From: Schlesneria paludicola DSM 18645
GTDB lineage: Bacteria > Planctomycetota > Planctomycetia > Planctomycetales > Planctomycetaceae
Assembly (NCBI GenBank): GCA_945862235.1
Contig: CAMAYU010000003.1
Location: 1 to 64,000 of the forward strand
Direction of reading: 5' to 3'
Length of the DNA: 64,000 nt
Shown here piece by piece: positions 4,457 to 46,791 of the stretch. Each line of letters starts with the position of its first letter. Position 1 is the first letter of the stretch. Made by a program: the position numbers and the translations under genes. Under the pieces are notes generated by a model. It saw only the letters and a list, made by a program, of their open reading frames with translations. It made no database searches and had not been told where the DNA came from.

Positions 4457-4509
4457 CGACGATACTCCATGTTTACAGTACGATGGCTTCGCAACCCCAG
4501 GAGTGCAGC

Positions 4510-6048
4510 ATGTGTCACTGGCTGAATAGATTTGTCGTTCTTGTGATCTCGACTTTCGCGGTCACCGCGCGAGCCGCCGAACCGATCGACATCGGGTCGC
4601 GGCGGGAGTTGTTTGTCGATCAAGCATTGGTCGAACGGCTGCACGGGCGGGCTGAGTTTCGGCTGCATCATCCGACACCGCGCGAAGTAGCGCTCACGTT
4701 CGAGAAGCCGTGGGAGGGGAACGCCAGCGGGTACGCGACCGTGTTTCAGGACGGCGACATTTTTCGGATGTACTACCGAGGCCACCGCTACATCATCGAC
4801 CCGCCGCCGTTGAGACAGGCTCAATCAGAAGTTGTCTGCTATGCCGAGAGTCGCGACGGGGTTCATTGGGTGAAGCCGAACCTCGGTTTGTTCGACTGGC
4901 CGCCGACTATGAACAACACGGGGACGAAAGAGAACAACATCTTCTGGCGAGGCGGCTACGAGACGCACAACTTCGCTCCGTTCAAAGACACGAACCCGGC
5001 CTGCGTGCCCGACGAACGTTACAAGGCGGTCGGCGGCACGACTGCCAGCAAGGGGCTGCTGACGTTCAAGTCGGCCGACGGAATCCATTGGTCGAAACTC
5101 AGCGACGGGCCGGTCGTCACGACGGGAGCGTTCGACTCGCACAACACAGTCTTCTGGGACGCCAGCCGCCAGCGGTATTCGATGTATGTCCGGTACTTCA
5201 GCGAGAAGGATTTCAAGGGGCTGCGTTCGATCGGCGTGTCGCATTCGACCGACTTCAAGACGTGGTCCGAACCGGTGGGGCTGACGTATCCGGCCGACTC
5301 GCCGCCTCAGCAGATGTACACAAATCAGATCGCGCCGTATCACCGAGCACCACACATTCTGATGGGCTTTCCGACTCGCTTCGTCTCGCGCCCGCTGACC
5401 GATCATGCGAAGCAACTGGAACCGGTGAAAACGCGAGCCCAATTCGCCGCGTCCATCGCCGGGAGCGGAGCCTACACGGGAGCCGAAGTGACCGACGGCC
5501 TGTTCATGACCAGCCGCGACGGCCGCGCCTTTCGCCGCTGGGACGAAGCCTTCCTGCGACCGGGACCGGAAGCGGAGGGCCGTTGGATCTACGGCGACAA
5601 CTATCAAAGCTACGGCCTGTTCGAGACCCGCTCCGCGACCCCGGGCGCGCCGCACGAACTCTCGCTGCACTTCAACGAAGGTTCGTGGCGCGACGAAACC
5701 CATCGACTGCGCCGCTACACAATCCGCCTCGACGGCTTCGTCTCGCTGCGCGCCCCGCTGACCGGCGGCGAACTGACAACCAAGCCCTTGAAATTCACCG
5801 GCCGCCGCCTCTCGCTGAATTACTCAACCTCCGCCGCCGGCAGCCTCCGCATCGAAATCCAAGACGCCGCCGGCCAACCGATCCCCGGCTTCTCGCTCGC
5901 CGACGCCGACGAGTTGTTCGGCGATTCCGTCGATCAAACCGCCTCCTGGAAAAACGCAACCGACATCAACCGCCTCGTCGGCCAGGAAGTCCGCCTCCGC
6001 TTCGTGCTCCACGACGGCGACCTCTTCTCGTTCCAATTCCGCGATTGA
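4510..6048 (+). CDS. Secreted five-bladed-propeller glycosidase-like protein with C-terminal beta-sandwich
   Basis: The 512-residue product has a Sec signal peptide (1-22, cleavage after VTARA), then IGSRRELFVDQALVERL, the family entry motif. Repeated Asp-box-like strands (ESRDGVHWVKP, SADGIHWSK) and blade motifs such as FRMYYRG indicate a GH32/GH43-type propeller to about residue 400. A tail begins at YTIRLDGFVSLRAPLTGG and ends RLRFVLHDGDLFSFQFRD. This tail recurs in six other proteins of this window, and the protein is closest to the one at 61387-62946. ATG 4510 is favoured by CAGGAG 6 nt upstream; an ATG at 4483 lacks this and would bury the signal peptide. No catalytic residues can be assigned with certainty, so enzyme activity is inferred. 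Confidence 0.85.
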   Translation: MCHWLNRFVVLVISTFAVTARAAEPIDIGSRRELFVDQALVERLHGRAEFRLHHPTPREVALTFEKPWEGNASGYATVFQDGDIFRMYYRGHRYIIDPPPLRQAQSEVVCYAESRDGVHWVKPNLGLFDWPPTMNNTGTKENNIFWRGGYETHNFAPFKDTNPACVPDERYKAVGGTTASKGLLTFKSADGIHWSKLSDGPVVTTGAFDSHNTVFWDASRQRYSMYVRYFSEKDFKGLRSIGVSHSTDFKTWSEPVGLTYPADSPPQQMYTNQIAPYHRAPHILMGFPTRFVSRPLTDHAKQLEPVKTRAQFAASIAGSGAYTGAEVTDGLFMTSRDGRAFRRWDEAFLRPGPEAEGRWIYGDNYQSYGLFETRSATPGAPHELSLHFNEGSWRDETHRLRRYTIRLDGFVSLRAPLTGGELTTKPLKFTGRRLSLNYSTSAAGSLRIEIQDAAGQPIPGFSLADADELFGDSVDQTASWKNATDINRLVGQEVRLRFVLHDGDLFSFQFRD

Positions 6049-6153
6049 CGCCGCGCTGTGCCATCAAGAATGCTGTTCTGCGAAGTTGCAGTCTCTGCGT
6101 ACAATTCTTGGCATCCTTTGTCAGAAACACTGCTTCTCGGAAGGAGCCGAATC

Positions 6154-6966
6154 ATGAGTGCAACGTCGAGCATTGAATGGACGGATGCAACTTGGAATCC
6201 AGTGCGCGGCTGCACCAAGATCAGTCCGGGGTGTGCTCACTGTTACGCCGAGACTTTTGCGGAGCGTTTTCGTGGTGTACCGGGGCATCCGTATGAGCAA
6301 GGATTTGACTTGCGGCTGGTACCAGAGAAGCTCTCGGAGCCGTTGAAATGGCGGATCCCGCGAATGATCTTCGTGAATTCGATGAGCGATCTGTTTCACG
6401 AAGAAGTGCCCGACGAGTACATCGAGCAAGTGGCACGCGTGATGACGCTCGCCAACTGGCACACATATCAAGTGCTGACGAAGAGAGCCTCGCGGTTGCG
6501 GTCTTTGTTGCAGTCACGATTGCAGTTTGCGGCAGCACTCTCACACATTTGGTGGGGCGTCAGTGTCGAGAATCGAAAGCACGGACTTCCGCGTATCGAA
6601 CAACTGCGAGCGGCCCCGGCATCGGTGCGATTCCTTTCGGTAGAGCCGCTACTGGAGGACATCGGGGCGATTGAGCTTGAGGGCATCCACTGGGTCATCG
6701 TTGGTGGCGAGAGCGGAGCAGGAGCTCGACCGATGCAAGAGGAATGGGCGCTCTCGATTCGCGACCAATGCAAGAAAGCGAACGTTCCGTTCTTCTTCAA
6801 ACAATGGGGCGGCGTCCGTAAGTCAGAGAATGGGCGACAACTTGCTGAACGAACTTACGACGAATTTCCGACACAAAAGCGGAAGCAACCCGTCCCATCC
6901 GATCAAACCCGTCGCAATCTCATCGCTACCTTCGACGCGATTCAACCGACGGGAGTGGTGGCATGA
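6154..6966 (+). CDS. DUF5131 / phage Gp37-Gp68 family protein (three-Cys-motif protein)
   Basis: This 270-residue cytoplasmic protein begins IEWTDATWNPVRGCTKISPGC and carries Cys20, Cys27 and Cys30 in CTKISPGCAHCYAE, the three-cysteine motif that defines the family and resembles a radical-SAM or metal-binding cluster. Other family segments are FVNSMSDLFHE, QVLTKR, IWWGVSVEN, LSVEPLLE and VIVGGESGAGARPM, all intact, and the length is normal. AAGGAG lies upstream of ATG 6154. Its stop overlaps the start of tcmP by ATGA at 6963-6966, so the two were translationally coupled before the insertion sequence arrived. The biochemical role of the pair is not established. The association with TcmP is known family context. 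Confidence 0.92.
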   Translation: MSATSSIEWTDATWNPVRGCTKISPGCAHCYAETFAERFRGVPGHPYEQGFDLRLVPEKLSEPLKWRIPRMIFVNSMSDLFHEEVPDEYIEQVARVMTLANWHTYQVLTKRASRLRSLLQSRLQFAAALSHIWWGVSVENRKHGLPRIEQLRAAPASVRFLSVEPLLEDIGAIELEGIHWVIVGGESGAGARPMQEEWALSIRDQCKKANVPFFFKQWGGVRKSENGRQLAERTYDEFPTQKRKQPVPSDQTRRNLIATFDAIQPTGVVA

Positions 6967-16791: not shown

Positions 16792-18507
16792 TCAGTTCTG
16801 CTTGGGCGCGGAATCTCCGGCCGCATCGGAGCGATACGCGGCTTCGACGAGTCCCAGGGGCCGCTCTTGATCGCTCATGGTCAGCGCATGCAGCCGGGCG
16901 CGCGTCATGTGGAACTTGAGCCGAATCTCCTGGCCCACGAGCTTGCCCAGGTCGGCGTTGTTCGACCAGCGGACCGGGTGGTCGAGAGCGTCTCCCTGGA
17001 TCTCGCGAGACTCGGCGACTGTGAAGCCCGGGATCGGCTGCCAATCGCGGGTCAGCACTTCCACGCGGATGGAGCCTTTCCCCCACGTCGCGGCGTTCAG
17101 GTACAGGCGGGGATGTGAGACGACCAGCGGTTTCGTGAGCACACGGCAGGGCTGCGCATCGGGCGTTCCGGTTTCCAGCGAGGCGAATCGGTCGCGTTTC
17201 AGGGTCGCCAGCGCAACGCCCCCGGAATAATCCGCCGACGCGCTTTCATCGACGTCATGGGGAAAGTTCAGGGCCGCGTAATAAATGTAGATCGTGTCGT
17301 TGACCACGATCGGCCGGGGCTGCGAGCAAGCCATCGCCATGAAGTCGTAATACCCCAACGGCCCATGCGGAATGAACGGCGTCCCGCGACAGACTCGTGT
17401 GAAGTGAGTGCCGTCGCGGCTCGTCGCCAGATGAATGTCGATCGGCTGAGGGTGACGCAGATAGAAGATGCTCACATATCCGACGTACGTCGCGCCGAAC
17501 TTGTGGCAGCCGAATTGATAGAGTTCCGTGTCGGCCGGATCATCGGCGTCCATCGCGAGAATGAATCGATGGTTCTTCCATTCGCGCAGGTCGTCGCTCT
17601 CGGCATAGGCATACGAGCGGTTGTAGCGATCGATGGGCGACCGATTCCGATCGCTGTCGTTGGCGATCATCCGCTCGCTGAACTCGGGGATGATCCGCCG
17701 GTAGATCACCCACTTCCGCTTCGCCTCGTCAAACATCAAGTGCATCAGACAGTCGTCCCCGGTGCCCGCAACATCGTGCGGCGTTTGCCAGAACGGCGAT
17801 GCCGCGCAGGACCAGTGAACGCCATCCGGCGAGGTGACGATGTGCGCTCCTCGGCGGTGATCCTGCACGATCGCCAGTGCGACGTAATTCTCCGACGGAT
17901 CGCGCGGCTGCGGATGCTTGTTGACGCCCCAGAAGAAAGCCTTCTTGCCCTGCGGCACCATCGGCGTCGTCGGAATGACGAATTTCTCCGGACCGTACGC
18001 GAGTCGGGTCGGAGCCTTCGGGATCAGGTCGCTGGCAAAGACGACGTTGTGGTCGCGGCGACCTCCCAGGTCGAAAACTCCCAGATCGGGCTTCTCCCAA
18101 TGGACGCCGTCTCGTGACGTGTAATAGAGGATCCACGCGGCATTACCGCCGACATACCCGGCCTTCGCATCGCTGCCGGCCCGAGCCCACATTTTGAACA
18201 GCTTTTCTTCGGCGTCGTACATCGTCGTGTATGGCTCGATGTACGTTCCCTCGCACCAGCGTTCCGGCCGGATCACGGGATTCAGCAAGTGTTTCTTGGC
18301 CGGGTGCAACTTGCGCGACACGCCAGGAGTCGCTTCCAGCAACTGGTTGTCGAGGAACAATTCCGTCGTGAAGGGGGGCCGGTCAACGGGTCGGCTTCGA
18401 TCGGCCGCCGGCGCCGCGGTCTCGTCCGCCGAAGCGGTCTGCAACGTCAACAGCGCCGCTCCCGCGGTTCCGGCAGCCTGAATGAACTGGCGACGATTCG
18501 ATGTCAT
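16792..18507 (-). CDS. Tat-exported propeller/beta-sandwich glycosidase-like protein
   Basis: The 571-residue product starts with a twin-arginine signal (MTSNRRQFIQAAGTAGAALL). Family motifs follow: TELFLDNQLLEATPG, HPAKKHLLNPVIRPERWCEG, FKMWARAG, YTSRDGVHWEKPDLGVF and TSPDGVHW. ALATLKRDRFASL leads into the C-terminal sandwich with IRVEVLTRDWQPIPGF and RLKFHMTRARLHAL. ATG 18507 is chosen although the frame stays open to 18750, because the extra N-terminal part would only translate intergenic palindromic repeat (it reads GIGFQPV). It is a member of the seven-protein family; its enzyme activity is inferred. Confidence 0.85.
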   Translation of the reverse strand: MTSNRRQFIQAAGTAGAALLTLQTASADETAAPAADRSRPVDRPPFTTELFLDNQLLEATPGVSRKLHPAKKHLLNPVIRPERWCEGTYIEPYTTMYDAEEKLFKMWARAGSDAKAGYVGGNAAWILYYTSRDGVHWEKPDLGVFDLGGRRDHNVVFASDLIPKAPTRLAYGPEKFVIPTTPMVPQGKKAFFWGVNKHPQPRDPSENYVALAIVQDHRRGAHIVTSPDGVHWSCAASPFWQTPHDVAGTGDDCLMHLMFDEAKRKWVIYRRIIPEFSERMIANDSDRNRSPIDRYNRSYAYAESDDLREWKNHRFILAMDADDPADTELYQFGCHKFGATYVGYVSIFYLRHPQPIDIHLATSRDGTHFTRVCRGTPFIPHGPLGYYDFMAMACSQPRPIVVNDTIYIYYAALNFPHDVDESASADYSGGVALATLKRDRFASLETGTPDAQPCRVLTKPLVVSHPRLYLNAATWGKGSIRVEVLTRDWQPIPGFTVAESREIQGDALDHPVRWSNNADLGKLVGQEIRLKFHMTRARLHALTMSDQERPLGLVEAAYRSDAAGDSAPKQN

Positions 18508-18533
18508 CGAGTGATTCCTCGCGGGGGTTTCTT

Positions 18534-18722
18534 CCGTGGCATAGGCTTCCAGCCTGTGAAAAAGTCCGAAGATTGCATCCTGTCCGCATTCGCTTGTCCC
18601 CATTCGTCTGTCATCCCAAATACATAAAGATGACAGACGAATGGGGACAGGCGAATGAAGTCCGCGGCGCTGCCGCCTCAAGAGAAATACGACAGGCTGG
18701 AAGCCTATCCCACGACTTTTCA
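18534..18722. repeat. Palindromic repeat, family A, copy 3, interrupted by a second palindrome
   Basis: The left arm (GGCATAGGCTTCCAGCCTGT, about 18538-18557) and right arm (from about 18692, reading ACAGGCTGGAAGCCTAT) are those of family A. Their loop has been expanded to about 130 bases by an unrelated palindrome at 18587-18657. The right arm ends 12 bp before the stop of the PQQ-propeller gene. Confidence 0.85.
18587..18657. repeat. Nested palindrome, family G, inside the family A copy
   Basis: Two 29-base arms (18587-18615 and 18629-18657, core CCCCATTCGTCTGTCATC) are complementary with one mismatch around a 13-base AT-rich loop. It sits in the loop of the family A repeat, suggesting insertion of one repeat into another. 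Confidence 0.88.
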
Positions 18723-18733
18723 ACGGGGTCGAT

Positions 18734-20269
18734 TTACTTCGCGCGGCCATCAGCGGCGAAGCACATCAACTGTGTTCGCGTGCGGACGAAGAGGCCGCTG
18801 TCGGCGATCGCGGGAGTCGCGACGATGCTCTCGCCGATGTCGTTCACTGCGAGTTCTTCGTAGTCCACTGCGTTCTTCAGGACGGTGACGTTGCCGTTGT
18901 CGCTGGCGAGATAAATTTTCCCATCGCCGAATACGGGAGACGCGAAGTAGCTGCCGCCGCTGCCGATCCGTTTGGGGCCACGCACGGAGTCTCCCTGCTT
19001 CGTGTTGAAGACGGTGCTGATGCCTCCCTCTTTGACCAGAAACATGCGGCCGTCGGAAACGAAGGGCGAGACGATGTGATCGGTGTTCTTCGTCTTGTGC
19101 TTCCACAGCAGGTGCGTTTTCGTGACGTCTCCCCGGCCGCCGCCACGCACCGCCAGAATGAACTGCTCGGCGGCCGCGTCGCCGGTCGCGTTGAAATCGG
19201 CTCCCGCGAAATTGTCGGGATGCAGGAACGCGACATCCAACTCGCGTCCTTCCAGGAAACCGTCTTTGTTGAGGTCGCCGCGATCGAACGTCTTCTTGAA
19301 GAACGCTTCGGGGATCGGTTGCTTGCCGACGAAGCGTTGAATCTCCGCTTTGTCGAGCTTGTTGTCGTTGTTGCCGGCTTTCTCATCGCGATCGACGGAG
19401 GCCAGCCATTGATTGGCGATCGCGCCGCTTTGCACCGAGATGTAAATCACACCGTCGAGACAAACGGGCGTCGTCTTGATGTTTCGCAGCATGACCTTCG
19501 CAAACCAGCGACGCTTGCCAGAATCGGGGTCGTAGCCGATTAACTGGCCGGTCCCCGCCACCACGATCTCATCGCGACCGTCCACCGTGCAGATGACCGG
19601 ATGCGAGTAATTCACCGCCATGTCGAGCCGCTCGTCTCGCCAGCGCAACTTGCCCGTGGCTTTGTCAAAGGCCCAGAACGTGGGATTGAGATCGTCGTCC
19701 TGGCAGAACAACACCAAGTCGCGATACAGCACCGGCGACATTCCCGGTCCCCATTTGAAAACAAAGAACGGCGTCGGGAGTTTCTGCTGCCAGACGTCCT
19801 TGCCGGTCTGTGCATCGACGGTCAGCAGGCCCAGCGTGCTGAAGTAGAAGTAGACTCGCTCGGCATCCGCGGCCGGCGTCGCGCTGGCCTGACTGTTCGT
19901 CGCATGAACTTCCGCGAGCGGTCCGGTCTGCCAATCGCGTTGCCACAGCTTCTTGCCCGTGACGGCATCGAACGCGAACAAGCTGACTGTTTCGTCCGCC
20001 GTCATGCCGCTCACGAAGACTCGCCCGGCCGCGATGACCGAGCCGCCGACACCATCCCCCACCTTCGCGGACCAGCGAACATTCTCGGTCGCCGAAAACT
20101 TGACCGGCAGCGGTTTGGTCCCCGTTGAAATACCCGCGCAATTCGGCCCGCGAAACTGCGGCCAATCATCCGCTTGCACCATCGCGGGAAAGATCACCAG
20201 CGTCAGCAGTCCCGCCGAAACGATCGCGTTACGGAGTTGAGAAGGATGGATGCGGCTCAGGGTTTTCAT
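18734..20269 (-). CDS. Secreted PQQ-type beta-propeller protein with internal EF-hand pair
   Basis: The 511-residue protein has a signal peptide (ending AMVQA) and starts DDWPQFRGPNCAGIS, the hallmark of planctomycete outer-membrane-biogenesis (BamB-like) PQQ propellers. Blades carry GKKLWQRDW, GKDVWQQKL, GKLRWRDERL and GKRRWFAKV. Between blades lie two calcium-binding EF-hand loops, around DEKAGNNDNKLDKAEIQRF and RGDLNKDGFLEGRELD. AAGGAG 6-8 nt before ATG 20269 fixes the start; the open frame continues upstream into a repeat. Such proteins are probably periplasmic scaffolds or binding proteins. True quinone binding is not supported. Confidence 0.88.
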   Translation of the reverse strand: MKTLSRIHPSQLRNAIVSAGLLTLVIFPAMVQADDWPQFRGPNCAGISTGTKPLPVKFSATENVRWSAKVGDGVGGSVIAAGRVFVSGMTADETVSLFAFDAVTGKKLWQRDWQTGPLAEVHATNSQASATPAADAERVYFYFSTLGLLTVDAQTGKDVWQQKLPTPFFVFKWGPGMSPVLYRDLVLFCQDDDLNPTFWAFDKATGKLRWRDERLDMAVNYSHPVICTVDGRDEIVVAGTGQLIGYDPDSGKRRWFAKVMLRNIKTTPVCLDGVIYISVQSGAIANQWLASVDRDEKAGNNDNKLDKAEIQRFVGKQPIPEAFFKKTFDRGDLNKDGFLEGRELDVAFLHPDNFAGADFNATGDAAAEQFILAVRGGGRGDVTKTHLLWKHKTKNTDHIVSPFVSDGRMFLVKEGGISTVFNTKQGDSVRGPKRIGSGGSYFASPVFGDGKIYLASDNGNVTVLKNAVDYEELAVNDIGESIVATPAIADSGLFVRTRTQLMCFAADGRAK

Positions 20270-22021: not shown

Positions 22022-23446
22022 TCAGGCAATGATCTCTCGCACGGGGTCTCCTCCGTGAGCGATTGGGATCGGGCGGCCGGTGCGGTCGGGGACCGTTTGG
22101 TGGGAGTCGATGCCCATCAATTGATAAATCGTGGCGACGAAGTCGGCGGGGGACACTGGATGCGACGCCGGGTAGGCTCCGATCGCATCGGTCGAGCCGT
22201 GGACCAGGCCCTGCTTCACGCCGCCGCCGAACAGCAAACTAAATCCGCATTGAGGCCAGTGATCGCGGCCGGCGCTGCCGTTGACCTTCGGGGTTCGGCC
22301 CATCTCGCCCATCACGACGACCAACGTCGAATCGAGCAGCCCGCGCGAATCGAGATCGTGCAGCAGCGCGGGGATCACTTGATCGAGCAGCGGCAGATTC
22401 AGATTTTTCAACATGCCGAAGTTGTTGGAGTGCATGTCGTAGGCATGACCGTAATGGTCGAAGATTTCTTGATGGACGCTGACGAATGGGACGCCGGATT
22501 CGACGAGTCGTCGCGCGATGAGCAGGCTCGCGCCGACGAGGTTGTGGCCGTAGGCTTCGCGGATCGCGGCGGGTTCCAGGTTCAGATCAAAGGCATCGCG
22601 CGTGCGGCCCGACGTCAGCATCAAGAAGGCTCGCCGTTGAGCGTCACTCATCGTGGCGACTGCTCGCGACGATTGTGTGCGAGCGAACTCGCCGTCAATT
22701 TGCGAAACCAGTGATCGTCGCCGATCCAACCGCTGCACGGTCATGTCGGGCAGTGCGTCGGCCGTCGGCGGGAACGGCTCACCCAGGGGCATCACCGGGT
22801 CGTAGTGTTGAAACTTCGGCTCGCGAGCGAAGGTTGGCTGGCAGAGCGTGAACAGCGGGTCGTATTGCTTGCCCAGGAATCCGCCATACGGCCCGCGCCG
22901 ACGATGACCCATCTGTCCCGATCCGGGAAAGCACGGCATGCAGACGGCACCCGGCAAGTCGCTCGGCCCCAGTCCCAGGTACTGGCAGATCGCACCGATG
23001 TCCGGCGGATCGGTCGGCATCGCTTGAGCGGCGGGATTGCCATCCGTGAAGCCGGTCATGAACGGCAGCGGATCGTGCGAGTTGAACATGTGGCTGAAGG
23101 TGCGAATCAACGTCGCTCGGTGCATCCACTGCGCGAGCTTCGGCAGATGCTCGCAGATCGACAGGCCAGGGACTGATGTCGCGATGGGGTTGAACTCGCC
23201 GCGGATCTCGACGGCGGCCTGCGGTTTCAAATCCACCATGTCGATATGCGACGGACCTCCGAGTAAATTGAACATGATCACGGACTTCGCCGGGCCGCGA
23301 GTTCCTCCGCCGCTGTTCGCCGCCTGAGCGGCTCGCGACCAATTCAACCCGCCAAACAGCGACAGTCCGCCGACCCGCATCAGTTCGCGGCGAGTAATCC
23401 CATCGCACAGTCGCGTCTCGGAGCCAAGAACTCGCAACATGTTCAT
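22022..23446 (-). CDS. DUF1501 domain protein, Tat-exported
   Basis: The protein is about 474 residues with twin-arginine signal ITRRELMRVGGLSLFGG. Conserved blocks are MFNLLGGPSHIDMVDLKP, IRGEFNPIATSVPGLSICE, MHSNNFGMLK, LLDSTLVVVMGEMGRTPKVN and GSAGRDHWPQCGFSLLFGGG. Its start overlaps the stop of the GntR gene (ATGA at 23443-23446), so the pair is translationally coupled. A second ATG at 23440 has AGGGGA at better spacing and could be the real start. Coupling to a GntR/FCD regulator suggests it belongs to the aldolase operon's regulon (inference). As elsewhere in the window, no DUF1549/1553 partner is adjacent. Confidence 0.9.
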   Translation of the reverse strand: MNMLRVLGSETRLCDGITRRELMRVGGLSLFGGLNWSRAAQAANSGGGTRGPAKSVIMFNLLGGPSHIDMVDLKPQAAVEIRGEFNPIATSVPGLSICEHLPKLAQWMHRATLIRTFSHMFNSHDPLPFMTGFTDGNPAAQAMPTDPPDIGAICQYLGLGPSDLPGAVCMPCFPGSGQMGHRRRGPYGGFLGKQYDPLFTLCQPTFAREPKFQHYDPVMPLGEPFPPTADALPDMTVQRLDRRRSLVSQIDGEFARTQSSRAVATMSDAQRRAFLMLTSGRTRDAFDLNLEPAAIREAYGHNLVGASLLIARRLVESGVPFVSVHQEIFDHYGHAYDMHSNNFGMLKNLNLPLLDQVIPALLHDLDSRGLLDSTLVVVMGEMGRTPKVNGSAGRDHWPQCGFSLLFGGGVKQGLVHGSTDAIGAYPASHPVSPADFVATIYQLMGIDSHQTVPDRTGRPIPIAHGGDPVREIIA

Positions 23447-24177
23447 TCCCCTGTTTCTGTGGTCGGCGTGGAAGCGACGACTTGATCGGCAGCGTCCAGT
23501 GTCGCTCGGATCTGCACACGGATCATGGCGCGAGCCCGTTCGACGTCGCGGTCGCGAATGGCGTCGAGCAGTTCGCGATGCTCCCAGCAAATGCGTTCGG
23601 CCGAAGCCAAGGTCGGTTTGGACTGCGGAACCGTCTGAAAGAATTGCACCAGGACTTGCTGCATTCCGGCGATCAGCCGCGATCCGGTCATCTCCAGAAT
23701 CAACGAGTGAAATTTTACATCCAGCTCGATGGAGCGAACCGACGACTGGTCCTGCAAAACGGCTTGTTCCAGTTCTTGCTCGATCTGACCGAGCCGATCA
23801 ATCTGTTCGTTGGTGGCAGCTCGAATCGCTAGTTCGATCGCCCCGACCTCCAGCGCGTAACGAAGCTGAGCGAGATCGCGCCAATCGTCGGGCGAGGTCA
23901 TCAGCGAGGGGAGACTGTTTTGAAACAGTCGCAGCGGGTCGGGGCAGCGAACGATCAGCCCTTTCCGTTTGCGTCCCTCCAAAAGTCCGAGCGCCTGCAA
24001 ACGGCTGACCGCTTCGCGCGTGACCGTCCGCGACGCACCGTACTCGGCGGCGAGCTGTGCCTCAGTCATGAAGAACGAGCCGTCGGTCAACCGCTCCGCT
24101 TGAATCCGGTGGCGGATCTTCCGAGCAAGTTCTCGGACTTGTGTCGCAGGTCGTGAGCTAGAAACGACAGCGTCCAT
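23443..24177 (-). CDS. GntR-family transcriptional regulator, FadR subfamily (FCD domain)
   Basis: The 244-residue protein has an N-terminal winged helix (about 12-80) with TEAQLAAEYGASRTVTREAVSRLQALGLLEGRKRKGLIV, typical of GntR. An FCD ligand/metal domain follows (about 95-230) with LRYALEVGAIELAI, DVKFHSLILEMTGSRLI and ICWEHRELLDAIRDRDVERA, whose histidines and Asp suit a metal-bound carboxylate effector. FCD regulators usually sense sugar acids or similar metabolites. It sits between the aldolase/fusion genes and a DUF1501 gene, and overlaps the latter by 4 bp. The simplest inference is a local repressor of the catabolic genes. The AT-rich spacers at 24190-24260 and 27690-27830 are the places to look for its operator. 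Confidence 0.92.
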   Translation of the reverse strand: MDAVVSSSRPATQVRELARKIRHRIQAERLTDGSFFMTEAQLAAEYGASRTVTREAVSRLQALGLLEGRKRKGLIVRCPDPLRLFQNSLPSLMTSPDDWRDLAQLRYALEVGAIELAIRAATNEQIDRLGQIEQELEQAVLQDQSSVRSIELDVKFHSLILEMTGSRLIAGMQQVLVQFFQTVPQSKPTLASAERICWEHRELLDAIRDRDVERARAMIRVQIRATLDAADQVVASTPTTETGE

Positions 24178-24319: not shown

Positions 24320-26683
24320 TCACGTCAGCCGGGCGAAGCCGGTATGACGAACCGGAACGCCGATCGACTGAAGTCGTTGCTGCACGTCACCCAGGCGAAT
24401 CGCTTCGGCTAGTTCGGCGAAGACCGGTTCGAGGGCGGCCAGGTATTGGGTGAGGTGATGTTCCTTGTGGGCGTAGCTGGGATAAAAGCCGCTGCCGGTG
24501 AGGAAGCCTCGGTTGAGCATCCGCGCGGTGAGGAACGTTCCTAGCCCGGCCGCTTGTTCGTGATCGAAACTCAGGTGGAGCAGCGCCGGGTGGCCGGAGA
24601 CTTTCACCGGCACTTTCCATCGCTGACCGAGATGCTTCCAGCCGTCACGCATCAGCCCGCCGATGCGACTGGTGTGAGCGGCGATATCGACCTCACGCAG
24701 TTTGCGAATGGTCGCCAGGGCCGCAGTCGGACCAATGGCTTCGGTCCAGTAGGTGCTCGAGATGAACGATGTTTGCGCGGCTTCCATGACTCGCCGCCTA
24801 CCGATAATCGCGGCCATCGGATGACCGTTTCCAAGAGCCTTGGCGAAGACGGCCATGTCCGGCATCACGCCGTATTTCAAATGCGCACCGCCGAGATGCA
24901 TCCGCCAGCCGGATGAGATTTCGTCGAAAATCAGCGTCGCACCACAGCGGTCGCACAGTTCGCGAACACCTTCCAGAAAGCCTGGTTCGGGATCAGTGGA
25001 TCGAGTCGGCTCCATCACAACCGCCGCCAGTTCGCTGCCGTGACGAGTGACGAGCTGCTCGAGTTCCTCCAGCCGGTTGTAGGTAAAAGGGAGCGCTGTC
25101 CCGGCCAGGCCGCGCGGCACGCCGTTCGGTGCCAAGCCCGGCAACAGGTGGCCCTGCAAACCATCCGTCGCGCCTGCGGGATTCACATTCGCCGCGAGGT
25201 ACCAGTCGGACCAACCGTGATAGCCGCAGAACGCGATCTTGTCTCGACCGGCCGCCGCACGAGCGATGCGGACGGCGATCGCCATCGACTCGCCGCCGGA
25301 ACGCGCATAGCGAACCTGTTCGGCCCACGGATGCAGTTCGATCAGCAGCTCGGCCAGTTCGACATCTTCGGCGGCGTTCAGCGTCGACATCGAGCCGAGC
25401 GAGATTCGGCGTTGAACGGCTGCGGTGACATCGGGGTCGGCGTATCCCAGCAAACAGGAACCGATGCCGGAGGTCGTCATGTCGATAAATCGTCGACCAT
25501 CGAGATCGGTCACTTCACAACCACGAGCTTCGCGCGCATAGGCGGGCCAGAGTCCGGGAGCGAACATCTCCGGCCGCTTGCTGAGCAGTTGCGTTCCGCC
25601 GGGAATGAGTTGTTTTGCGCGGGCGTATGTGGCTTGTGTCTGCTCGCCGATTCGCGACCCGGACGCGGCCTTATTGTCATCCCCGAAGCTCACTTCGAAG
25701 GCGGCGACCGCGTTTCTCCAGAAGAGGTTGTGGATGTCATCTTTGGACCACTGAGCGATCTCCGCAGCATGCTTCATCGACAGCAGTTGCTCGTAGATCG
25801 CCAAGATCGGCCGACCATCGCAGTGCGGAAACTGCAGGTTGAAGCGGTCGATATCCACGTACTGCCACGCGCGGCCCATCGCGGCGTACTGCCCGTGAAA
25901 GTACGTCGCGTCGACACCGTCCGAGCCGTACAGAATGCGCCGCCGATCCTCGCGCGAGAACAACGTGATCAGCGGTCGCACGTCGGTCACGGCCGAAACG
26001 TCGTACCAGATATTCGGCATGTCGCGCAGTTGATCGATCGCCTTGCGGATTGGCCAATACGTAAAGCTGCGAGCGCAATGAGCCAGAATCCATTTGATGT
26101 TCGGGTAACGGCTTCCGGTGAACTCCCGCAGGTCGTCCAGGTTGAACTCGTCCGCGCAGCCATGAAACCGCGAGAGGTGCATCGTGACCCACAGTCCCAA
26201 TTCGTTCGCCAGCTCCAATTGTTCGTGAGGCAGGAACTCATGAATCCGGCACTGTGCGATGTCTCCCGTAACGGAGAACAACCGGTACGGTTTGAGTCCG
26301 ATGAATCCTCTCTCGCGCACATCGCGTTCGATGTCCTGCACGCGGCACGACGGCGTCACCAACCGATTCATCCGTGACTGCGGATCTTGCCTGACCTGCT
26401 CGATGCACCAGCGATTGTGAGCCGTCACGTCGATCCCCAGCGTCGGCGTTCCCAGCACGAGAAAATGCGTCTCACGACCGGGATACAACCGCTCGGCCCA
26501 CTGCTGCAGCGATGAGAAATCGGTATGTCCCCACGCACTGGACCCAGACGCGGCCGTCGTCAGATGTTCGGGATGAAACATGTGGATGTGTGCGTCGAAC
26601 ACACGATCCGAGACAAAGTCCTGCAGTTCTTCATCCCAAATCTGCTGATCGTGCGGCGAGAAGTCGTTGATCGAGACGGGCAT
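24320..26683 (-). CDS. Fusion: amidohydrolase (TIM barrel) + class III glutamate-1-semialdehyde-type aminotransferase
   Basis: The 787-residue protein has two complete enzyme domains. Residues 1 to about 335 are an amidohydrolase-2 barrel with the metal set D-A-H-I-H (His32, His34), His169 (VTMHLSRFH), His202 (ILAHCAR) and Asp255 (LYGSDGVDA). Residues about 345-787 are a class III aminotransferase of the GSA-AT type: LIPGGTQLLSKRP, ARSGGESMAIAVRIARA, FCGYHGWSD, FDEISSGWR (Asp587) and the PLP lysine Lys615 in AVFAKALGNGHPM. All key residues are present in both halves. There is no signal peptide. ATG 26683 has GGGAA nearby, and the frame extended to 26791 only translates a palindrome. It follows the aldolase gene and precedes the GntR gene. 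A two-step pathway on one polypeptide (hydrolysis, then amino transfer or isomerisation) is inferred. Confidence 0.9.
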   Translation of the reverse strand: MPVSINDFSPHDQQIWDEELQDFVSDRVFDAHIHMFHPEHLTTAASGSSAWGHTDFSSLQQWAERLYPGRETHFLVLGTPTLGIDVTAHNRWCIEQVRQDPQSRMNRLVTPSCRVQDIERDVRERGFIGLKPYRLFSVTGDIAQCRIHEFLPHEQLELANELGLWVTMHLSRFHGCADEFNLDDLREFTGSRYPNIKWILAHCARSFTYWPIRKAIDQLRDMPNIWYDVSAVTDVRPLITLFSREDRRRILYGSDGVDATYFHGQYAAMGRAWQYVDIDRFNLQFPHCDGRPILAIYEQLLSMKHAAEIAQWSKDDIHNLFWRNAVAAFEVSFGDDNKAASGSRIGEQTQATYARAKQLIPGGTQLLSKRPEMFAPGLWPAYAREARGCEVTDLDGRRFIDMTTSGIGSCLLGYADPDVTAAVQRRISLGSMSTLNAAEDVELAELLIELHPWAEQVRYARSGGESMAIAVRIARAAAGRDKIAFCGYHGWSDWYLAANVNPAGATDGLQGHLLPGLAPNGVPRGLAGTALPFTYNRLEELEQLVTRHGSELAAVVMEPTRSTDPEPGFLEGVRELCDRCGATLIFDEISSGWRMHLGGAHLKYGVMPDMAVFAKALGNGHPMAAIIGRRRVMEAAQTSFISSTYWTEAIGPTAALATIRKLREVDIAAHTSRIGGLMRDGWKHLGQRWKVPVKVSGHPALLHLSFDHEQAAGLGTFLTARMLNRGFLTGSGFYPSYAHKEHHLTQYLAALEPVFAELAEAIRLGDVQQRLQSIGVPVRHTGFARLT

Positions 26684-26815: not shown

Positions 26816-27643
26816 TCATGACTGGTTTTCCATAAGACGGGCCGCTTCGGAGGCGAGCCGGTTGTCGAAGGTGAAACCAAGCGGGGCATAGCGCTGTTGA
26901 ATCTGTTCCATCCCCTGCTTCACCATAATCAGATCGGCGCCGTGGCAGATGAACTTCGCGCCCAGATCGAACAGCTTCTGCGTGTGTTCCGGACTGCCAC
27001 TGACCGTGCCCCACCATTTGCCCGCGTTCTTCGCGGCTTCGGCAACGCGACGGTAGGCGTCGATGATGATCGGATGATCGAACTGGTACGGGATGCCCGC
27101 GACGACGCTCAGGTCGCCGGGCCCCAACATCAGCACGTCCACGCCCGGCACGGCCGCGATCGCTGCCGCATGATCGAGCGCATTGGGGGATTCCAATTGT
27201 GCGATGAGCAGCGTGTGCTCGTTGGCCGCCTTCAGGTACGGCACCATCGGAATCGCGCAGTACGGGTTGTCTCCATTCGCACCGTCCACGCCACGCTCGC
27301 CCTGAGGAGCGAACTTCGCCCACCGCACCAGCTCGGCGGCTTCCTCGGCTGACTCACAGCGCGGATACATGATCCCTTGAGCTCCGGCTTCCAGCAGCCG
27401 CCCCATGCGCATGAACTCACCTTTGGCAGGTCGCGCGATGATGTCCGACGCTCCGACGCGCGCGGCTCGCATCAGATTCGAGGCGGTCTCATCGCTCGTG
27501 GAATGATGTTCCAGATCGAGCCAGATCCCGTCGAACCCCAACAAGCTGACGAGTTCATACACGCTGGGATCGATGAAGTGGCAGCAGGTGATGAGCACCG
27601 GCTCGCCACGGGTGAGTTTGGCTTTGACTCGACTCGGTCGCAT
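26816..27643 (-). CDS. HpcH/HpaI-family class II pyruvate aldolase (2-keto-3-deoxy-sugar-acid type)
   Basis: The 275-residue enzyme has the HpaI/GarL signature. DGIWLDLEHH contains the catalytic His46, ARPAKGEF contains Arg71, IAQLESPNALDH contains metal ligand Glu151, and MLGPGDLSVVAG contains metal ligand Asp177. A C-terminal GADLIMVKQGMEQIQQRY helix is also normal. Family members cleave 4-hydroxy-2-oxo acids or 2-keto-3-deoxy sugar acids to pyruvate plus an aldehyde. ATG 27643 is selected by AAGGAAA 7 nt upstream. It is the first gene of a minus-strand set with the amidohydrolase-aminotransferase fusion and the GntR regulator, so it probably acts on a product of extracellular glycan breakdown (inference). 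Confidence 0.92.
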   Translation of the reverse strand: MRPSRVKAKLTRGEPVLITCCHFIDPSVYELVSLLGFDGIWLDLEHHSTSDETASNLMRAARVGASDIIARPAKGEFMRMGRLLEAGAQGIMYPRCESAEEAAELVRWAKFAPQGERGVDGANGDNPYCAIPMVPYLKAANEHTLLIAQLESPNALDHAAAIAAVPGVDVLMLGPGDLSVVAGIPYQFDHPIIIDAYRRVAEAAKNAGKWWGTVSGSPEHTQKLFDLGAKFICHGADLIMVKQGMEQIQQRYAPLGFTFDNRLASEAARLMENQS

Positions 27644-27859: not shown

Positions 27860-28006
27860 TACTCGAAAGACCTGGGCCTGCCTCTGACGATCAGCTTCGT
27901 GTGGATCATCCCGTGCTCGCTGCTGTTGGGAGTCACCGTCGGAACCGTAGCCAGCGCCCTGCGGCCCAATCACCCGAAAGAAACGCCAAATGACCTTCGA
28001 ACTTGA
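27860..28006 (+). pseudogene. Remnant of the C-terminus of a sodium:solute symporter-like transporter
   Basis: This frame lacks a start. It encodes a hydrophobic helix (FVWIIPCSLLLGVTVGTVAS) plus a short basic tail, stopping at 28004-28006 inside the next gene. It aligns with the remnant at 141-302 over about 25 residues. The rest of the transporter is absent upstream. I read it as debris of a deleted symporter gene that once preceded the PhyH gene. Confidence 0.4.
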
Positions 28007-28742
28007 GAAGCAACACTACGACCGATACGGCTTCGTGATCGTGCGACAGCTTCTCGGGGAAACAGACTTCACGGAGCTGAAGGAGAATCTGGACCGCTAC
28101 ATTCGCGACGTGGTCCCCGGTCTTCCCGACGGCGACGCTTTCTATCAGGATCGCTCCCGTCCCGAGACGCTCAAGCAGATGCAGCGAATGGGAGGCGATA
28201 CGTTCTTTCTGAACTACATGCAGCATCCAAAATGGACGGCATTGGCTCAGGTTCTCGTCGGCGAGCCAGTGACTGCCGATCAGCCGGAATGGTTCAACAA
28301 GCCGCCTGGAACGAATCACGTCACGCCGCCGCATCAGGACAACTACTACTTCTGCCTCGCGCCGTCCAATGTCGTCACGATCTGGCTGGCGCTCGACCCG
28401 GTCTACGCGGAAAACGGTTGCTTGCGATACGTCGACGGCTCACACCAACGCGGTTATCGCACGCATGCGAAGTCGCAGATTCTTGGCTTCTCGCAAGGAA
28501 TCACGGACTACTCTCCCGAGGACTTCACGCGCGAGGTCGCCGTACCGCTTCAGCCTGGCGATGCGGTCGCGCACCACGGCATGACGATCCACCGCGCGGA
28601 CGCCAATCTCTCATCGACCCGGCATCGCCGCTCGTTTGCGATGGTCTTCAAAGGCGTTTCCTGTCAGCGCGACGAAGCCGCCTTTGCTCGTTATTCGGCC
28701 GCCGCGCGCGATCAACATCAAGAACTGGGACTGAAGACCTAA
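27990..28742 (+). CDS. Phytanoyl-CoA dioxygenase (PhyH) family oxygenase
   Basis: The 250-residue cytoplasmic protein has EKQHYDRYGFVIVRQLL at the N-terminus, the iron ligands H115 and D117 in VTPPHQDNYYF, the substrate loop TIWLALDPVYAENGCLRYVDGSH, and the distal ligand in HHGMTIHRADAN (most likely H201), with basic residues following (TRHRRSFAMVFKG). It resembles ectoine-hydroxylase-like PhyH enzymes of planctomycetes. The substrate is unknown. The next gene, a signal-less propeller, starts 12 bp after the stop and is surely co-transcribed. It is only distantly similar to the other PhyH protein here (9561-10433). Confidence 0.9.
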   Translation: MTFELEKQHYDRYGFVIVRQLLGETDFTELKENLDRYIRDVVPGLPDGDAFYQDRSRPETLKQMQRMGGDTFFLNYMQHPKWTALAQVLVGEPVTADQPEWFNKPPGTNHVTPPHQDNYYFCLAPSNVVTIWLALDPVYAENGCLRYVDGSHQRGYRTHAKSQILGFSQGITDYSPEDFTREVAVPLQPGDAVAHHGMTIHRADANLSSTRHRRSFAMVFKGVSCQRDEAAFARYSAAARDQHQELGLKT

Positions 28743-28754
28743 CGGAAAACCAAA

Positions 28755-29828
28755 ATGATTGACCTCTCGCAATCGGCATCGGCCTCGCCGCTGGTTCATT
28801 CCGCGGCAACGGACCCAGGCAAGGTCTGGATGAAAGACGCCGCCGTGGCGATCGAGGCTCCGCCGGATACGGATGTTGATCCGCGGCCCGAAGCCCGATG
28901 GTTGCCTGACGCCCCGCGCACCGGTCTCTGTGGCGCGGTCAGCCCGCGCGTGCTTGCTGTGCCGAATGGCGGCTACCGCATGTACTACTCACAGATTTTG
29001 CCGCGACCTGGATTTCCCGCCGGAGCCAACGACTACGACAACTCAACGACGCGCATCTTGAGCGCGTTCTCGCCGGATGGCGAAGTGTGGACTCCGGAAC
29101 CGGGCGTGCGACTGTCGCCTCAAGCCGGAGGAGCCGGAGGAGCCGGAGAGTTCCGCGTCGTCTCGTCCGAAGTTGTCCCCGTCGGTGATGGCCGCCGACT
29201 GCGGATGTATTACGAGTGCTGCGCCGGCCCTCAGTCGATCGAAAATTCGATCCGCAGCGCCATCTCGACCGACGGCGGACTCGATTGGACGCCCGAGCCG
29301 GGTGCGAGATGGGAAATCGCGGGCCGTAATCTTTCGGCACCACGCATCGTCTTTCTGAGCGACGGTCGCTGCCGGCTGTACTGCGTCGAGCGAGGTCGCG
29401 GCATCATCAGCGCCGTGTCGGACGACGGCGGCCTCGTGTTTCATCCCGAACCGGGCGTGCGAGTCGCTCAAAACGGAGCGTTCGACTCGCACGCGGCATT
29501 CGCGCCTGAGATCCTTCGCGTCGCGACTGACCGTTATGTGATGTACTACGCGGGATACGCTCAGCCGAATCGAGCGTACATCCTGCGGGCCGTCTCCGAC
29601 GACGGCCTGACTTGGTCCAAAGACTCCGCGCCGGTGCTCGCGCCCGGTCCCGGCGGTTGGGATGGCGCGAAGTGTTCCGAAATGTGCGTGATCCGTCTGC
29701 CGCATCGCGAAGACGCAGTTCCTCGTTCTCGCATGTTCTACGAAGCGTGCGACGGGACCGCGAAAGACGAACGCGGCGTGTGGCGCATCGCCAGCGCGAC
29801 CAGTGCGGCTTGCCAGAACTCAAAGTGA
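28755..29828 (+). CDS. Signal-less five-bladed propeller, GH43/GH32-like
   Basis: The 357-residue protein lacks any signal peptide. Repeats of the type GGYRMYYSQ, ILSAFSPDGEVWTPEPGVRL, RSAISTDGGLDWTPEPGARW, IISAVSDDGGLVFHPEPGVR and ILRAVSDDGLTWSKDSAPVL show about four to five blades, each with an S-x-D-G-x-x-W turn and a following EPG element. It pairs with the PhyH gene 12 bp upstream. A clear paralogue with the same EPG repeats is at 63313 to the window end. A cytoplasmic location is unusual for this region. It may be a lactonase-like or glycosidase-like enzyme, or a binding protein; no catalytic residues are evident. Confidence 0.82.
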   Translation: MIDLSQSASASPLVHSAATDPGKVWMKDAAVAIEAPPDTDVDPRPEARWLPDAPRTGLCGAVSPRVLAVPNGGYRMYYSQILPRPGFPAGANDYDNSTTRILSAFSPDGEVWTPEPGVRLSPQAGGAGGAGEFRVVSSEVVPVGDGRRLRMYYECCAGPQSIENSIRSAISTDGGLDWTPEPGARWEIAGRNLSAPRIVFLSDGRCRLYCVERGRGIISAVSDDGGLVFHPEPGVRVAQNGAFDSHAAFAPEILRVATDRYVMYYAGYAQPNRAYILRAVSDDGLTWSKDSAPVLAPGPGGWDGAKCSEMCVIRLPHREDAVPRSRMFYEACDGTAKDERGVWRIASATSAACQNSK

Positions 29829-44185: not shown

Positions 44186-45262
44186 CTAATCCAGCATCGG
44201 TGCAGTGACCATGCCGATCCCCGTCGAACCGTAGCCGCGCGCGCCGTTGTAGAAGACGCGTAAGGAGCCGGCTTCGTGCAGCAGGAGCGGGTAGCCGATC
44301 GTGCCGCTTTCCCAGGTGTTGGGCCGGATGGTGAGCGAGACGTTTTCGCCCGGGGCGCCTCGTTCCCAGGTCAGTCCGTCATTGCTCACGGCTTCGCACA
44401 AGGAGTAGGTCAGCCCGGCATCCATCCCCGTGTAAATCGCCCGATAGCGAGTCTTCGTTTTCCAGACATGCAGTCCGACGACGCCGGTGTTTTCATGGGC
44501 CGCGTCCTGGCGGCGGTCGAGCACGACTCGCCGATTCTTCCACTCGATCCCATCGAACGACTCGGCGGCGGCACAGACTTTGTGATTCGGGTCGCGTTCC
44601 GTAGTGCCGGGCAGAATTGTGTAATGCAGACGGTACAACGTCCGGCCGTCGAGTTGCGGCAATTCCAGAATATTCCCGAGTCCCACGAGCGCCCGGTTGT
44701 CCGGATACTGCGGCACTCCGTCCCCCAGCAGGACGGGGCTATCGGGATGCTTCTTCCAGTCTCGCAGGTTGTCGCTTGTCGCCAGACCGATCCCCCAATA
44801 CTGAGAGAAATTCTGAGGTCCCACACGCGTGCTGCGGGCGGAGTAATACAAGTGCCACTTGTTTCCGAAACGATGCACGCACGGGTAAATGCAATGCACT
44901 TCGTCGAACGATCCAGGCCCGCCGAGATCAATGACAGGCCCCAGTCGTTCCCATTCCGTCGGCTGTTCGGGATGCGCCGTGGCCAGGCAGATCCGCAACT
45001 TGTCGTCGGTCCCATGTCCGCCATAGAACATCCACCAGCGGCCGTCTTGCGGAATCACGCACGGTCCCTGTGACCCACGAGCATCGAAGGGCGACTTGGG
45101 CACAAAGATCGGATTGCGTGCATCGCGCTCCCAGGCGTGCAATGCGAACTTCCGATTCTCATCGGCTGATTCGCGTGCGCTGCCGTGGCGATTCCACAGC
45201 GCGCTGGCTGATACGGCGGCTGAGGCGATCAGAAACTCGCGGCGCGAATCGGACATGCTCAC
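44186..45262 (-). CDS. Tat-exported GH43-like propeller protein, tandem copy 2
   Basis: The 358-residue protein begins MSMSDSRREFLIASAAVSAS (twin-arginine). It aligns throughout with the copy at 43050-44153: LHAWERDARNPIFVPKSPFD, GSQGPCVIPQDGRWWMFYGG, ICLATAHPEQPTEWERLGPV, CIYPCVHRFGNKWHLYYSARS, VVGLHVWKTKTRYRAIYTG and NDGLTWERGAPGENVSLTI. The GTG at 45262 overlaps the preceding stop by GTGA and has GGAG 7 nt upstream; ATG 45256 is the alternative. The overlap implies translational coupling to the propeller/sandwich gene at 45259-46791. Function is inferred as for copy 1. Confidence 0.88.
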   Translation of the reverse strand: MSMSDSRREFLIASAAVSASALWNRHGSARESADENRKFALHAWERDARNPIFVPKSPFDARGSQGPCVIPQDGRWWMFYGGHGTDDKLRICLATAHPEQPTEWERLGPVIDLGGPGSFDEVHCIYPCVHRFGNKWHLYYSARSTRVGPQNFSQYWGIGLATSDNLRDWKKHPDSPVLLGDGVPQYPDNRALVGLGNILELPQLDGRTLYRLHYTILPGTTERDPNHKVCAAAESFDGIEWKNRRVVLDRRQDAAHENTGVVGLHVWKTKTRYRAIYTGMDAGLTYSLCEAVSNDGLTWERGAPGENVSLTIRPNTWESGTIGYPLLLHEAGSLRVFYNGARGYGSTGIGMVTAPMLD

Positions 45263-46791
45263 GGCTTCGCTCCACTACGAAATGCGAAGGCGAACAACGA
45301 CGCATCGCGAAGATGAAACCGCAATGTGATCGAGCGGCCGGCCAACAGGGCCAGGTCTTTCTGGCCTGGGATTACAACCGGGTGACGCAGGTTGTCGCCG
45401 GCGATCGGCTCGGAGATGCCGAACCCGGATAGCGGCTGGCCAGCCGCATCGAGCAGTTCGACGCGAACCTCGCCCTCGGGCTTGGTCGATGCGTTAATTT
45501 CCAGCCTCGTGCCGGTGAAGCGCAGGGGAATGGTCGTCAGCGTGGCGCCCTCCGCTGGGCCGTCCGCCGAGCCGAAGCGATCTTTCTTCCACATCGCCAG
45601 GCCGCTGGCGCCGGTGTATTTCTGCTGACCTTTATCTCGCAATTTGTAATCGGCCACCAGGCCGTGCGTGTGGTTGTGGCCCCCGTAATACAGCCACACT
45701 TCATCGCCCACGTCGATCGCCTGCGATGCCGTGAGAATCATGCCCGAGTCCCATTCGCCGGGTTTCCCCAGCGGAATGATCGGGGTGCGAAACGGCCGGC
45801 TCCAGGTTTCTCGATCGCGCGTCAGCGCCACCTGCACGTCGATCGGCCCTTCTTGATTGCCTGGCGCGGGCACGTTGGCGCTAATGGTGAACACCCAGGG
45901 GAAGCCGATCGTGCAGCTTTCGGCCAGGTACACGCCAGCGCCGTAGAACTCCGTTCGCATCACGTTCGGATTGTCGGGCACGTTGAGCAGCGACCGGACG
46001 CGCTCCAACCGGCCGAGTGTTCCCAGGTCGTCGCGGCGATCAGCGAGGAATGCCGGCTCGGGGCGCGACCAGTGGCGGAAGTCGCGGCTTGTCGCAAGGT
46101 AGATGCTTCGCCGCACCCGGCCGAAGACCGGCGTGCTCAGCTTGCCCAGGAGGCCGAACTCGCCGGCCGCACGATCATGAAACGCGGAGACCACGTCGTC
46201 AACATAGGAGATCGGCACGACCGGCTTCGCGCTCTGCTCCTTCCAATTCAAGCCGTCGGGAGATACGTAGGCCATGTATCCGCGATTGACGTCGAACGCA
46301 ATCATCTTGTAACGCCGCGCTGGGTCGGGATCGCCTTCATCTCGGAAGACGCTGGGGCAATCACCGAGCGCGAGAACGGAATTGTGCGGCTTGCCGTTCC
46401 TGGCCTTTCTGGTGCCAACGGCCGGCTTCTTCCATGTGAGCCCGTCGCGGCTCGTTGCGTAGCAAATGCCTCGGTCGGCGAAATACTCGGGGTTGTTCTC
46501 GCACGTGTACCACATTTTGAAAAACGAATCGGACTGGTCAAACAGCACCGTGCCGGCAAACAAGGAAACGTAGCCTCCTTCCCACGGCTCGTCGGCGACG
46601 ACGAGCGGATTCTGTGGGTGCTTCCGCCCCGGGTGTAACGAGAACGAAACGCGCTCGGCATCAAAAACCAGCGATGGGTCGAGCAGCAACTGGCTGCGAC
46701 TGCCTGCGTCCAGCACGTTGATCTGCTGAGCAACGACCGCCGTCCGTGGCACGAGCACGATGATCGTTACCAGCACGATGAGAATTCGCAT
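45259..46791 (-). CDS. Secreted propeller/beta-sandwich glycosidase-like protein
   Basis: The 510-residue protein has a signal peptide (MRILIVLVTIIVLVPRTAVVAQ). Family motifs follow: GSRSQLLLDPSLVFDAERV, HPGRKHPQNPLVVADEPWEGG, FFKMWYTCE, YATSRDGLTWKKPAVG, DEGDPDPARRYKMI and YVSPDGLNWKEQS. The shared tail starts LAMWKKDRFGS and ends TLRFHLRDASLFAFAFRSG. It is first in a series of closely spaced minus-strand genes running down to 34764, and overlaps the next gene by 4 bp. No catalytic residues are assigned. Confidence 0.86.
   Translation of the reverse strand: MRILIVLVTIIVLVPRTAVVAQQINVLDAGSRSQLLLDPSLVFDAERVSFSLHPGRKHPQNPLVVADEPWEGGYVSLFAGTVLFDQSDSFFKMWYTCENNPEYFADRGICYATSRDGLTWKKPAVGTRKARNGKPHNSVLALGDCPSVFRDEGDPDPARRYKMIAFDVNRGYMAYVSPDGLNWKEQSAKPVVPISYVDDVVSAFHDRAAGEFGLLGKLSTPVFGRVRRSIYLATSRDFRHWSRPEPAFLADRRDDLGTLGRLERVRSLLNVPDNPNVMRTEFYGAGVYLAESCTIGFPWVFTISANVPAPGNQEGPIDVQVALTRDRETWSRPFRTPIIPLGKPGEWDSGMILTASQAIDVGDEVWLYYGGHNHTHGLVADYKLRDKGQQKYTGASGLAMWKKDRFGSADGPAEGATLTTIPLRFTGTRLEINASTKPEGEVRVELLDAAGQPLSGFGISEPIAGDNLRHPVVIPGQKDLALLAGRSITLRFHLRDASLFAFAFRSGAKP

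Follow-up and report, generated by a model that had tools for sequence, protein, structure and literature searches.

Within the window, the whole stretch of 64,000 nucleotides from Schlesneria paludicola DSM 18645 that was analysed, a single open reading frame joins an amidohydrolase to a class-III aminotransferase. The gene, its two domains and the genes around it are as follows:

23443..24177, minus strand: GntR/FCD regulator; nearest NCBIfam models NanR and LldR, with scores far below cut-off
24320..26683, minus strand: amidohydrolase–aminotransferase fusion gene, 787 aa (Amidohydro_2 and class-III PLP aminotransferase)
24323..25648, minus strand: aminotransferase domain, residues 346-787, with D587, K615, YHG at 488-490 and SGGE at 462-465
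25664..26683, minus strand: amidohydrolase domain, residues 1-340, with H32, H34, K131, H169, H202 and D255
26816..27643, minus strand: HpcH/HpaI-type aldolase (PF03328, E 1.2e-25), with a probable ATG start at 27643 in an ORF open to 27973
27990..28742, plus strand: PhyH-type Fe(II)/2-oxoglutarate dioxygenase, divergent, recurring beside fused and split forms
28755..29828, plus strand: Asp-box beta-propeller protein with sialidase-like repeats, 13 bp after the PhyH gene

The fusion frame starts with an ATG at 26683 and stops at 24320, whilst an alternative in-frame GTG upstream would give a protein of 823 aa; the span given in an earlier sequence-only reading was correct, and the strand is now established as minus. 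Transcription on this strand runs from the HpaI-type aldolase (start chosen by comparison with relatives) through the fusion to the GntR/FCD regulator. The propeller protein shows a weak BNR match below cut-off and three Asp-box motifs. Elsewhere in the window lie several proteins of about 510-650 aa (4483-6048, 45259-46791, 61387-62946 and 16792-18750): the first three cluster by sequence, that at 16792 resembles the same secreted type, and the two of the four that were scanned, at 45259 and 16792, had no Pfam match.

Both domains score above the Pfam gathering cut-offs, with Amidohydro_2 (PF04909) covering residues 85-329 (E 9.5e-17; 62.1 bits versus 26.4) and Aminotran_3 (PF00202) covering residues 382-752 (E 4.7e-47; 161 bits versus 30.5). 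The metal set of Amidohydro_2 (HxH, H, H, D) corresponds to H32, H34, H169, H202 and D255, which are the predicted metal ligands, and the PLP lysine K615 and the aspartate D587 of Aminotran_3 are both present: these seven residues, together with K131, are unvaried in all 61 full-length homologues compared. The claim that both active sites are complete on one 787-residue chain was thus borne out, with every named residue found at the number given for it. In the full-length model (pLDDT 86, pTM 0.73) the linker at about residues 340-345 is of low confidence.

The sequence-only reading had allowed for a sequencing error that joined two genes, and split relatives lying side by side do make a lost stop codon conceivable. 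Full-length fusion homologues are, however, found at 76-83% identity in other genomes of the same genus and at 45-47% in the same family, and dozens of independent genomes encode fusions of the same length with 42-99% identity; by a hand count from the table, about 50 of 397 genomes of the class carry the full-length fusion, several of them as single contigs. The same junction recurs in single-contig genomes, in the isolate Candidatus Laterigemmans baculatus JC640 (L087) and in metagenome-assembled genomes (MAGs) of many phyla, and two independent junctions, backed by identities and trees, likewise stand against an assembly error. An error of assembly or sequencing that joined two adjacent genes is therefore practically excluded by the independent full-length homologues. 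With one genome scanned per species, at least 561 relatives, fused or not, were confirmed; the best 80 of these include JC640 and belong to Planctomycetota, Verrucomicrobiota, Lentisphaerota, Kiritimatiellota, Acidobacteriota, Chloroflexota, Armatimonadota and Hydrogenedentota, along with single MAGs filed as Bacteroidota and Bacillota. The fusion is a family spanning at least eight phyla and not a lone oddity, and the hosts of the conserved fusion are hundreds of bacteria, mostly aquatic.

Two side observations concern individual loci. One MAG holds an intact fusion gene (L069) and a second copy broken into three ORFs (L078, G369:C115), which is either a pseudogene or the product of assembly errors. 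In Verrucomicrobiota, proteins of about 520 aa (cluster c14) are encoded immediately 5' of the fusion gene in L096, L101, L102 and L107; they have signal-peptide-like starts (e.g. L101:8398-9963), the two members scanned had no Pfam match, and in L101, L102 and L107 their genes overlap the called start of the fusion gene. Genes in relatives' loci were called with a simple script based on codon usage, so precise start positions and short intergenic distances there are approximate.

Comparison of the homologues domain by domain separates two types of fusion: FA, with the window's protein and its close relatives (15 rows), and FB (54 rows). Between the types the aminotransferase domains are 51.5-72.7% identical (mean 60.7%), whilst the amidohydrolase domains share just 23.8-31.2% identity, regardless of that of the aminotransferases, and belong to different subfamilies. 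FA pairs are equally constrained in both (mean identities of 80.3% and 80.2%), and FB pairs with 70-80% aminotransferase identity show 47-85% in the amidohydrolase. In the amidohydrolase tree, FA clusters with amidohydrolases that stand alone (100% SH-aLRT), apart from FB, which makes up a group by itself (94%). These trees are quick ones, with no outgroup and with long branches present; the identity comparison is independent of them. The amidohydrolase data reject one clade of all fusions (p-AU 4.3e-44) and likewise a clade that unites FA with the FB members closest to it in the aminotransferase (p 1.2e-5); on these data a single origin of the fusion is rejected. The aminotransferase data allow both FB monophyly (p 0.18) and a grouping of FA with divergent type-C aminotransferases (p 0.59), so that domain replacement and independent fusion are indistinguishable. 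Either way, the pairing arose on at least two occasions, with a different amidohydrolase each time and the same aminotransferase, which argues for two activities acting consecutively: repeated fusion from non-orthologous parts is strong evidence for one shared pathway.

Split forms of the pair occur as well. Stand-alone FA-type amidohydrolases exist at 56-82% identity, and in L156 the gene for one of them shares 42 bp with the gene for a type-C aminotransferase. In L032, from the same genus, an 82% identical amidohydrolase adjoins a type-C aminotransferase of 45% identity on the opposite strand, and in L033, L034, L035, L162 and L163 more distant amidohydrolase and aminotransferase genes lie close together, with a PhyH gene present in L033, L034, L035 and L163. 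The fusion to two kinds of amidohydrolase, together with the repeated co-location of split forms, is the strongest evidence here for one pathway. A further arrangement is seen in L163:7561-9912 (783 aa), where a D-2-hydroxyacid dehydrogenase and a type-C aminotransferase form one chain, followed by PhyH and amidohydrolase genes; a similar open frame of 802 residues is present in G391. The L163 type is a third way in which this aminotransferase group has been fused.

The gene neighbourhood was compared over 81 non-redundant loci. The position of the fusion between an HpaI aldolase and a GntR/FCD regulator, from which a compact catabolic route had been proposed, is real in the window and is one of several contexts across the family. 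Nine of the 81 loci, FA and FB alike, have an HpaI gene within 3 kb, where about 0.3 loci would be expected by chance from the 4 PF03328 genes in the 6.8-Mb genome. In Gimesia (L085, L086 and L088) the HpaI gene, whose product is 57% identical to that of the window, and the FB fusion gene overlap by about 4 bp, with a divergent GntR gene in two of the three loci. A Pfam tally of 95 operon neighbours gave HpaI 7 times, BNR_2 9 times, Gfo/Idh 6 times and GntR 4 times, compared to 2 for BNR_2, 4 for Gfo/Idh and at most 2 for HpaI (which was absent from the 25 commonest families) amongst 92 more distant genes of the same loci; since loci of one genus are not independent, these counts are a guide and not a statistical test. 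Enrichment of Gfo/Idh and SDR genes is not clear, given the similar control counts, and DUF1501 and propeller genes amongst the linked genes are common background in these genomes. Many members from Verrucomicrobiota and Acidobacteriota, and many FB loci, lack an HpaI gene in the vicinity. In a Schlesneria MAG (L021), a D-threonine-aldolase/3-hydroxyaspartate-aldolase-like gene (5303-6430; BhcC 190 bits, below cut-off) and a second Amidohydro_2 gene both precede the fusion.

A PhyH gene lies within 3 kb in 10 of the 81 loci, fused and split, with only 6 PhyH genes in the genome of the window. This could reflect a route through gamma-hydroxy alpha-amino acids, in which PhyH would hydroxylate an amino acid or derivative, the amidohydrolase would open a lactone, lactam or amide, the PLP domain would form a 4-hydroxy-2-oxo acid and HpaI would release pyruvate and an aldehyde. 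4-Hydroxy-2-oxo acids are textbook HpaI substrates, which counts for such a route, and the aminotransferase–D-2-hydroxyacid dehydrogenase fusion in L163 fits a 2-oxo acid product. However, the PhyH gene is often transcribed divergently, not in the same direction, and most FB loci lack it, and the route leaves the sugar-linked neighbours (NagA/NagB-like proteins, sugar dehydrogenases and propellers) unexplained: taken as a whole, we regard it as unlikely, although with a real chance of being correct.

Unfused relatives of the aminotransferase point to the class of substrate. In L144, a locus of a single lineage, an unfused aminotransferase 64% identical to that of the window shares an operon with GntR/UTRA, a NagA-like deacetylase (E 7e-53), a NagB-like protein (E 9.5e-18; both below NCBIfam cut-offs), Gfo/Idh, SDR and HpaI. 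Here the aminotransferase and HpaI occur together with a third kind of amidohydrolase, a relative of the deacetylases of amino sugars. Other unfused relatives (48-53% identity) belong to pseudaminic-acid or NeuB-type clusters (L152, L153, the Pseudosulfitobacter plasmid locus L168 and a Halorussus plasmid), where they adjoin or are fused to a cytidylyltransferase. The fused ones, from pseudaminic-acid gene clusters of planctomycetes and the Pseudosulfitobacter plasmid, are:

L152:6519-8651: cytidylyltransferase–aminotransferase fusion, CTP_transf_3 by Pfam
L153:8151-10196: cytidylyltransferase–aminotransferase fusion, CTP_transf_3 from sequence likeness
L168:9296-11329: cytidylyltransferase–aminotransferase fusion, CTP_transf_3 by Pfam

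Together, L144 and the nonulosonic clusters suggest amino sugars or nonulosonic-type acids, in breakdown and synthesis respectively, and the biosynthetic relatives show that the aminotransferase family serves the opposite metabolic direction too. The fused enzyme itself might then act in the biosynthesis or tailoring of a nonulosonic-acid-like surface sugar and not in catabolism: its aminotransferase relatives lie in PseB/PseC/PseG/PseI or NeuB clusters, and in Legionella pneumophila Sg6 a gene annotated as 'glutamate-1-semialdehyde aminomutase', a possible member of the subfamily, is reported to lie between pseG and a cytidylyltransferase gene (PMC3694923). Against this, the neighbours of fused members include HpaI aldolase, secreted propellers, symporters and regulators of the GntR/FCD or UTRA type, whereas none was identified as a cytidylyltransferase, PseI or NeuB, which makes a biosynthetic role improbable. 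As for the proposal of a catabolic route for a keto or amino sugar acid, the neighbourhood is consistent with catabolism of such a putative substrate and HpaI recurs in both fusion types.

The predicted structure of the amidohydrolase domain was compared with known folds. For this domain alone (AlphaFold model, pLDDT 89.7), the best folds by VIA were the COG3618 lactonase-type 4dlf and LigI-type hydrolases (Z 21), followed by isoorotate and dihydroxybenzoate decarboxylases (Z 20) and ACMSD/LigJ (Z 18-19). With lactonase, decarboxylase and hydratase folds at Z 18-21 and no wide gap between them, no one chemistry is singled out by VIA or Foldseek: lactonases are nearly tied with decarboxylases and LigJ, and amide hydrolysis hence has no advantage over hydrolysis of a lactone or C-C chemistry. 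The invariant K131 is placed on predicted strand 4 (129-131); binuclear amidohydrolases of subtype I bear on this strand a carbamylated lysine that bridges the two metals.

The aminotransferase domain has 5i92 and 4zm3 as its best PDB matches. A role in heme biosynthesis was ruled out: the fusion scores 194-196 bits against the hemL model (TIGR00713; cut-off 527), and the true hemL of the genome lies elsewhere (G000:C8, 598 bits). The score for the PRK06209 equivalog is likewise low (227.7 bits versus 486). The class-III fold also includes amino acid amide and caprolactam racemases (matches 6gio and 3dxw), and caprolactam racemase and lactamase pairs offer an analogue for a PLP domain that would act as racemase or aminomutase on an amide, lactam or amino aldehyde, of which the amidohydrolase would take one isomer. 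Whilst the top matches are indeed glutamate-1-semialdehyde aminomutases (5i92), the low hemL score and the separate hemL gene argue against an aminomutase, and the racemase matches (1e-20 to 1e-26) are much weaker than those of the GSAM type (2e-47); we consider isomerisation by the PLP domain quite unlikely.

The reading that we favour, with a probability of roughly 40%, is that of a bifunctional enzyme catalysing two consecutive steps in the degradation of an amino sugar or an amino sugar acid that is N-acylated (or a lactam/lactone). The metal-dependent amidohydrolase domain would cleave an amide or lactone to give a free amino acid, which the PLP domain would transaminate via the K615 Schiff base to an oxo acid or an amino-shifted aldehyde; the separate HpaI-type aldolase would then split a 4-hydroxy-2-oxo-type acid into pyruvate or hydroxypyruvate and an aldehyde, and the GntR/FCD regulator, from its position, would control the gene set in several lineages. 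This proposed order, hydrolysis followed by removal or shift of the amine and then HpaI aldol cleavage, is the best-supported reading. We suggest more tentatively, and with rather more doubt than belief, that the twice-assembled deacylase/lactonase-transaminase forms the core of an undescribed non-phosphorylated pathway of the PVC bacteria, leading from amino sugar acids or sialic-like nonulosonic acids to the HpaI aldolase. Planctomycetota and Verrucomicrobiota degrade complex glycans in water and sediment, and the fusion gives access to a still uncharacterised catabolic route that is widespread in both phyla; its elucidation would also assign a function to many proteins likely annotated just as 'aminotransferase class III' or 'glutamate-1-semialdehyde aminomutase'.

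The fusion presents known domain families in a conserved, recurrent and undescribed combination. In agreement with the sequence-only reading, which knew of no characterised enzyme with this domain order, none was found in literature or PDB searches: nothing relevant on an amidohydrolase-aminotransferase fusion was found in the literature, none of the PDB chains among the 60 phmmer matches listed covers both domains, and no characterised close relative of the amidohydrolase domain was found. With the Amidohydro_2 enzymes (COG2159/COG3618; ACMSD, dihydroxybenzoate decarboxylases, LigJ, L-fuconolactonase-type 4dlf and LigI) the fusion shares the TIM-barrel with its HxH, H, H and D, but identity to the solved folds is just 9-17% in fold alignments and the fusion has the invariant Lys131. 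Glutamate-1-semialdehyde 2,1-aminomutase and PRK06209-type enzymes, which give the best PDB and NCBIfam matches, have the same PLP fold, Schiff-base lysine, SGGE and YHG, whereas the fusion has a hydrolase attached and scores far below their curated cut-offs. The cytidylyltransferase–aminotransferase fusions contain an aminotransferase domain 48-53% identical to that of the window, yet have an N-terminal CTP_transf_3 partner and belong to biosynthetic clusters. In N-acetyltaurine-type logic, a separate amidohydrolase is followed by a class-III transaminase: the order of chemistry (deacylation, then transamination) is that of our proposal, although the genes are separate, the subfamilies are different and the likeness drawn here is one of chemistry.
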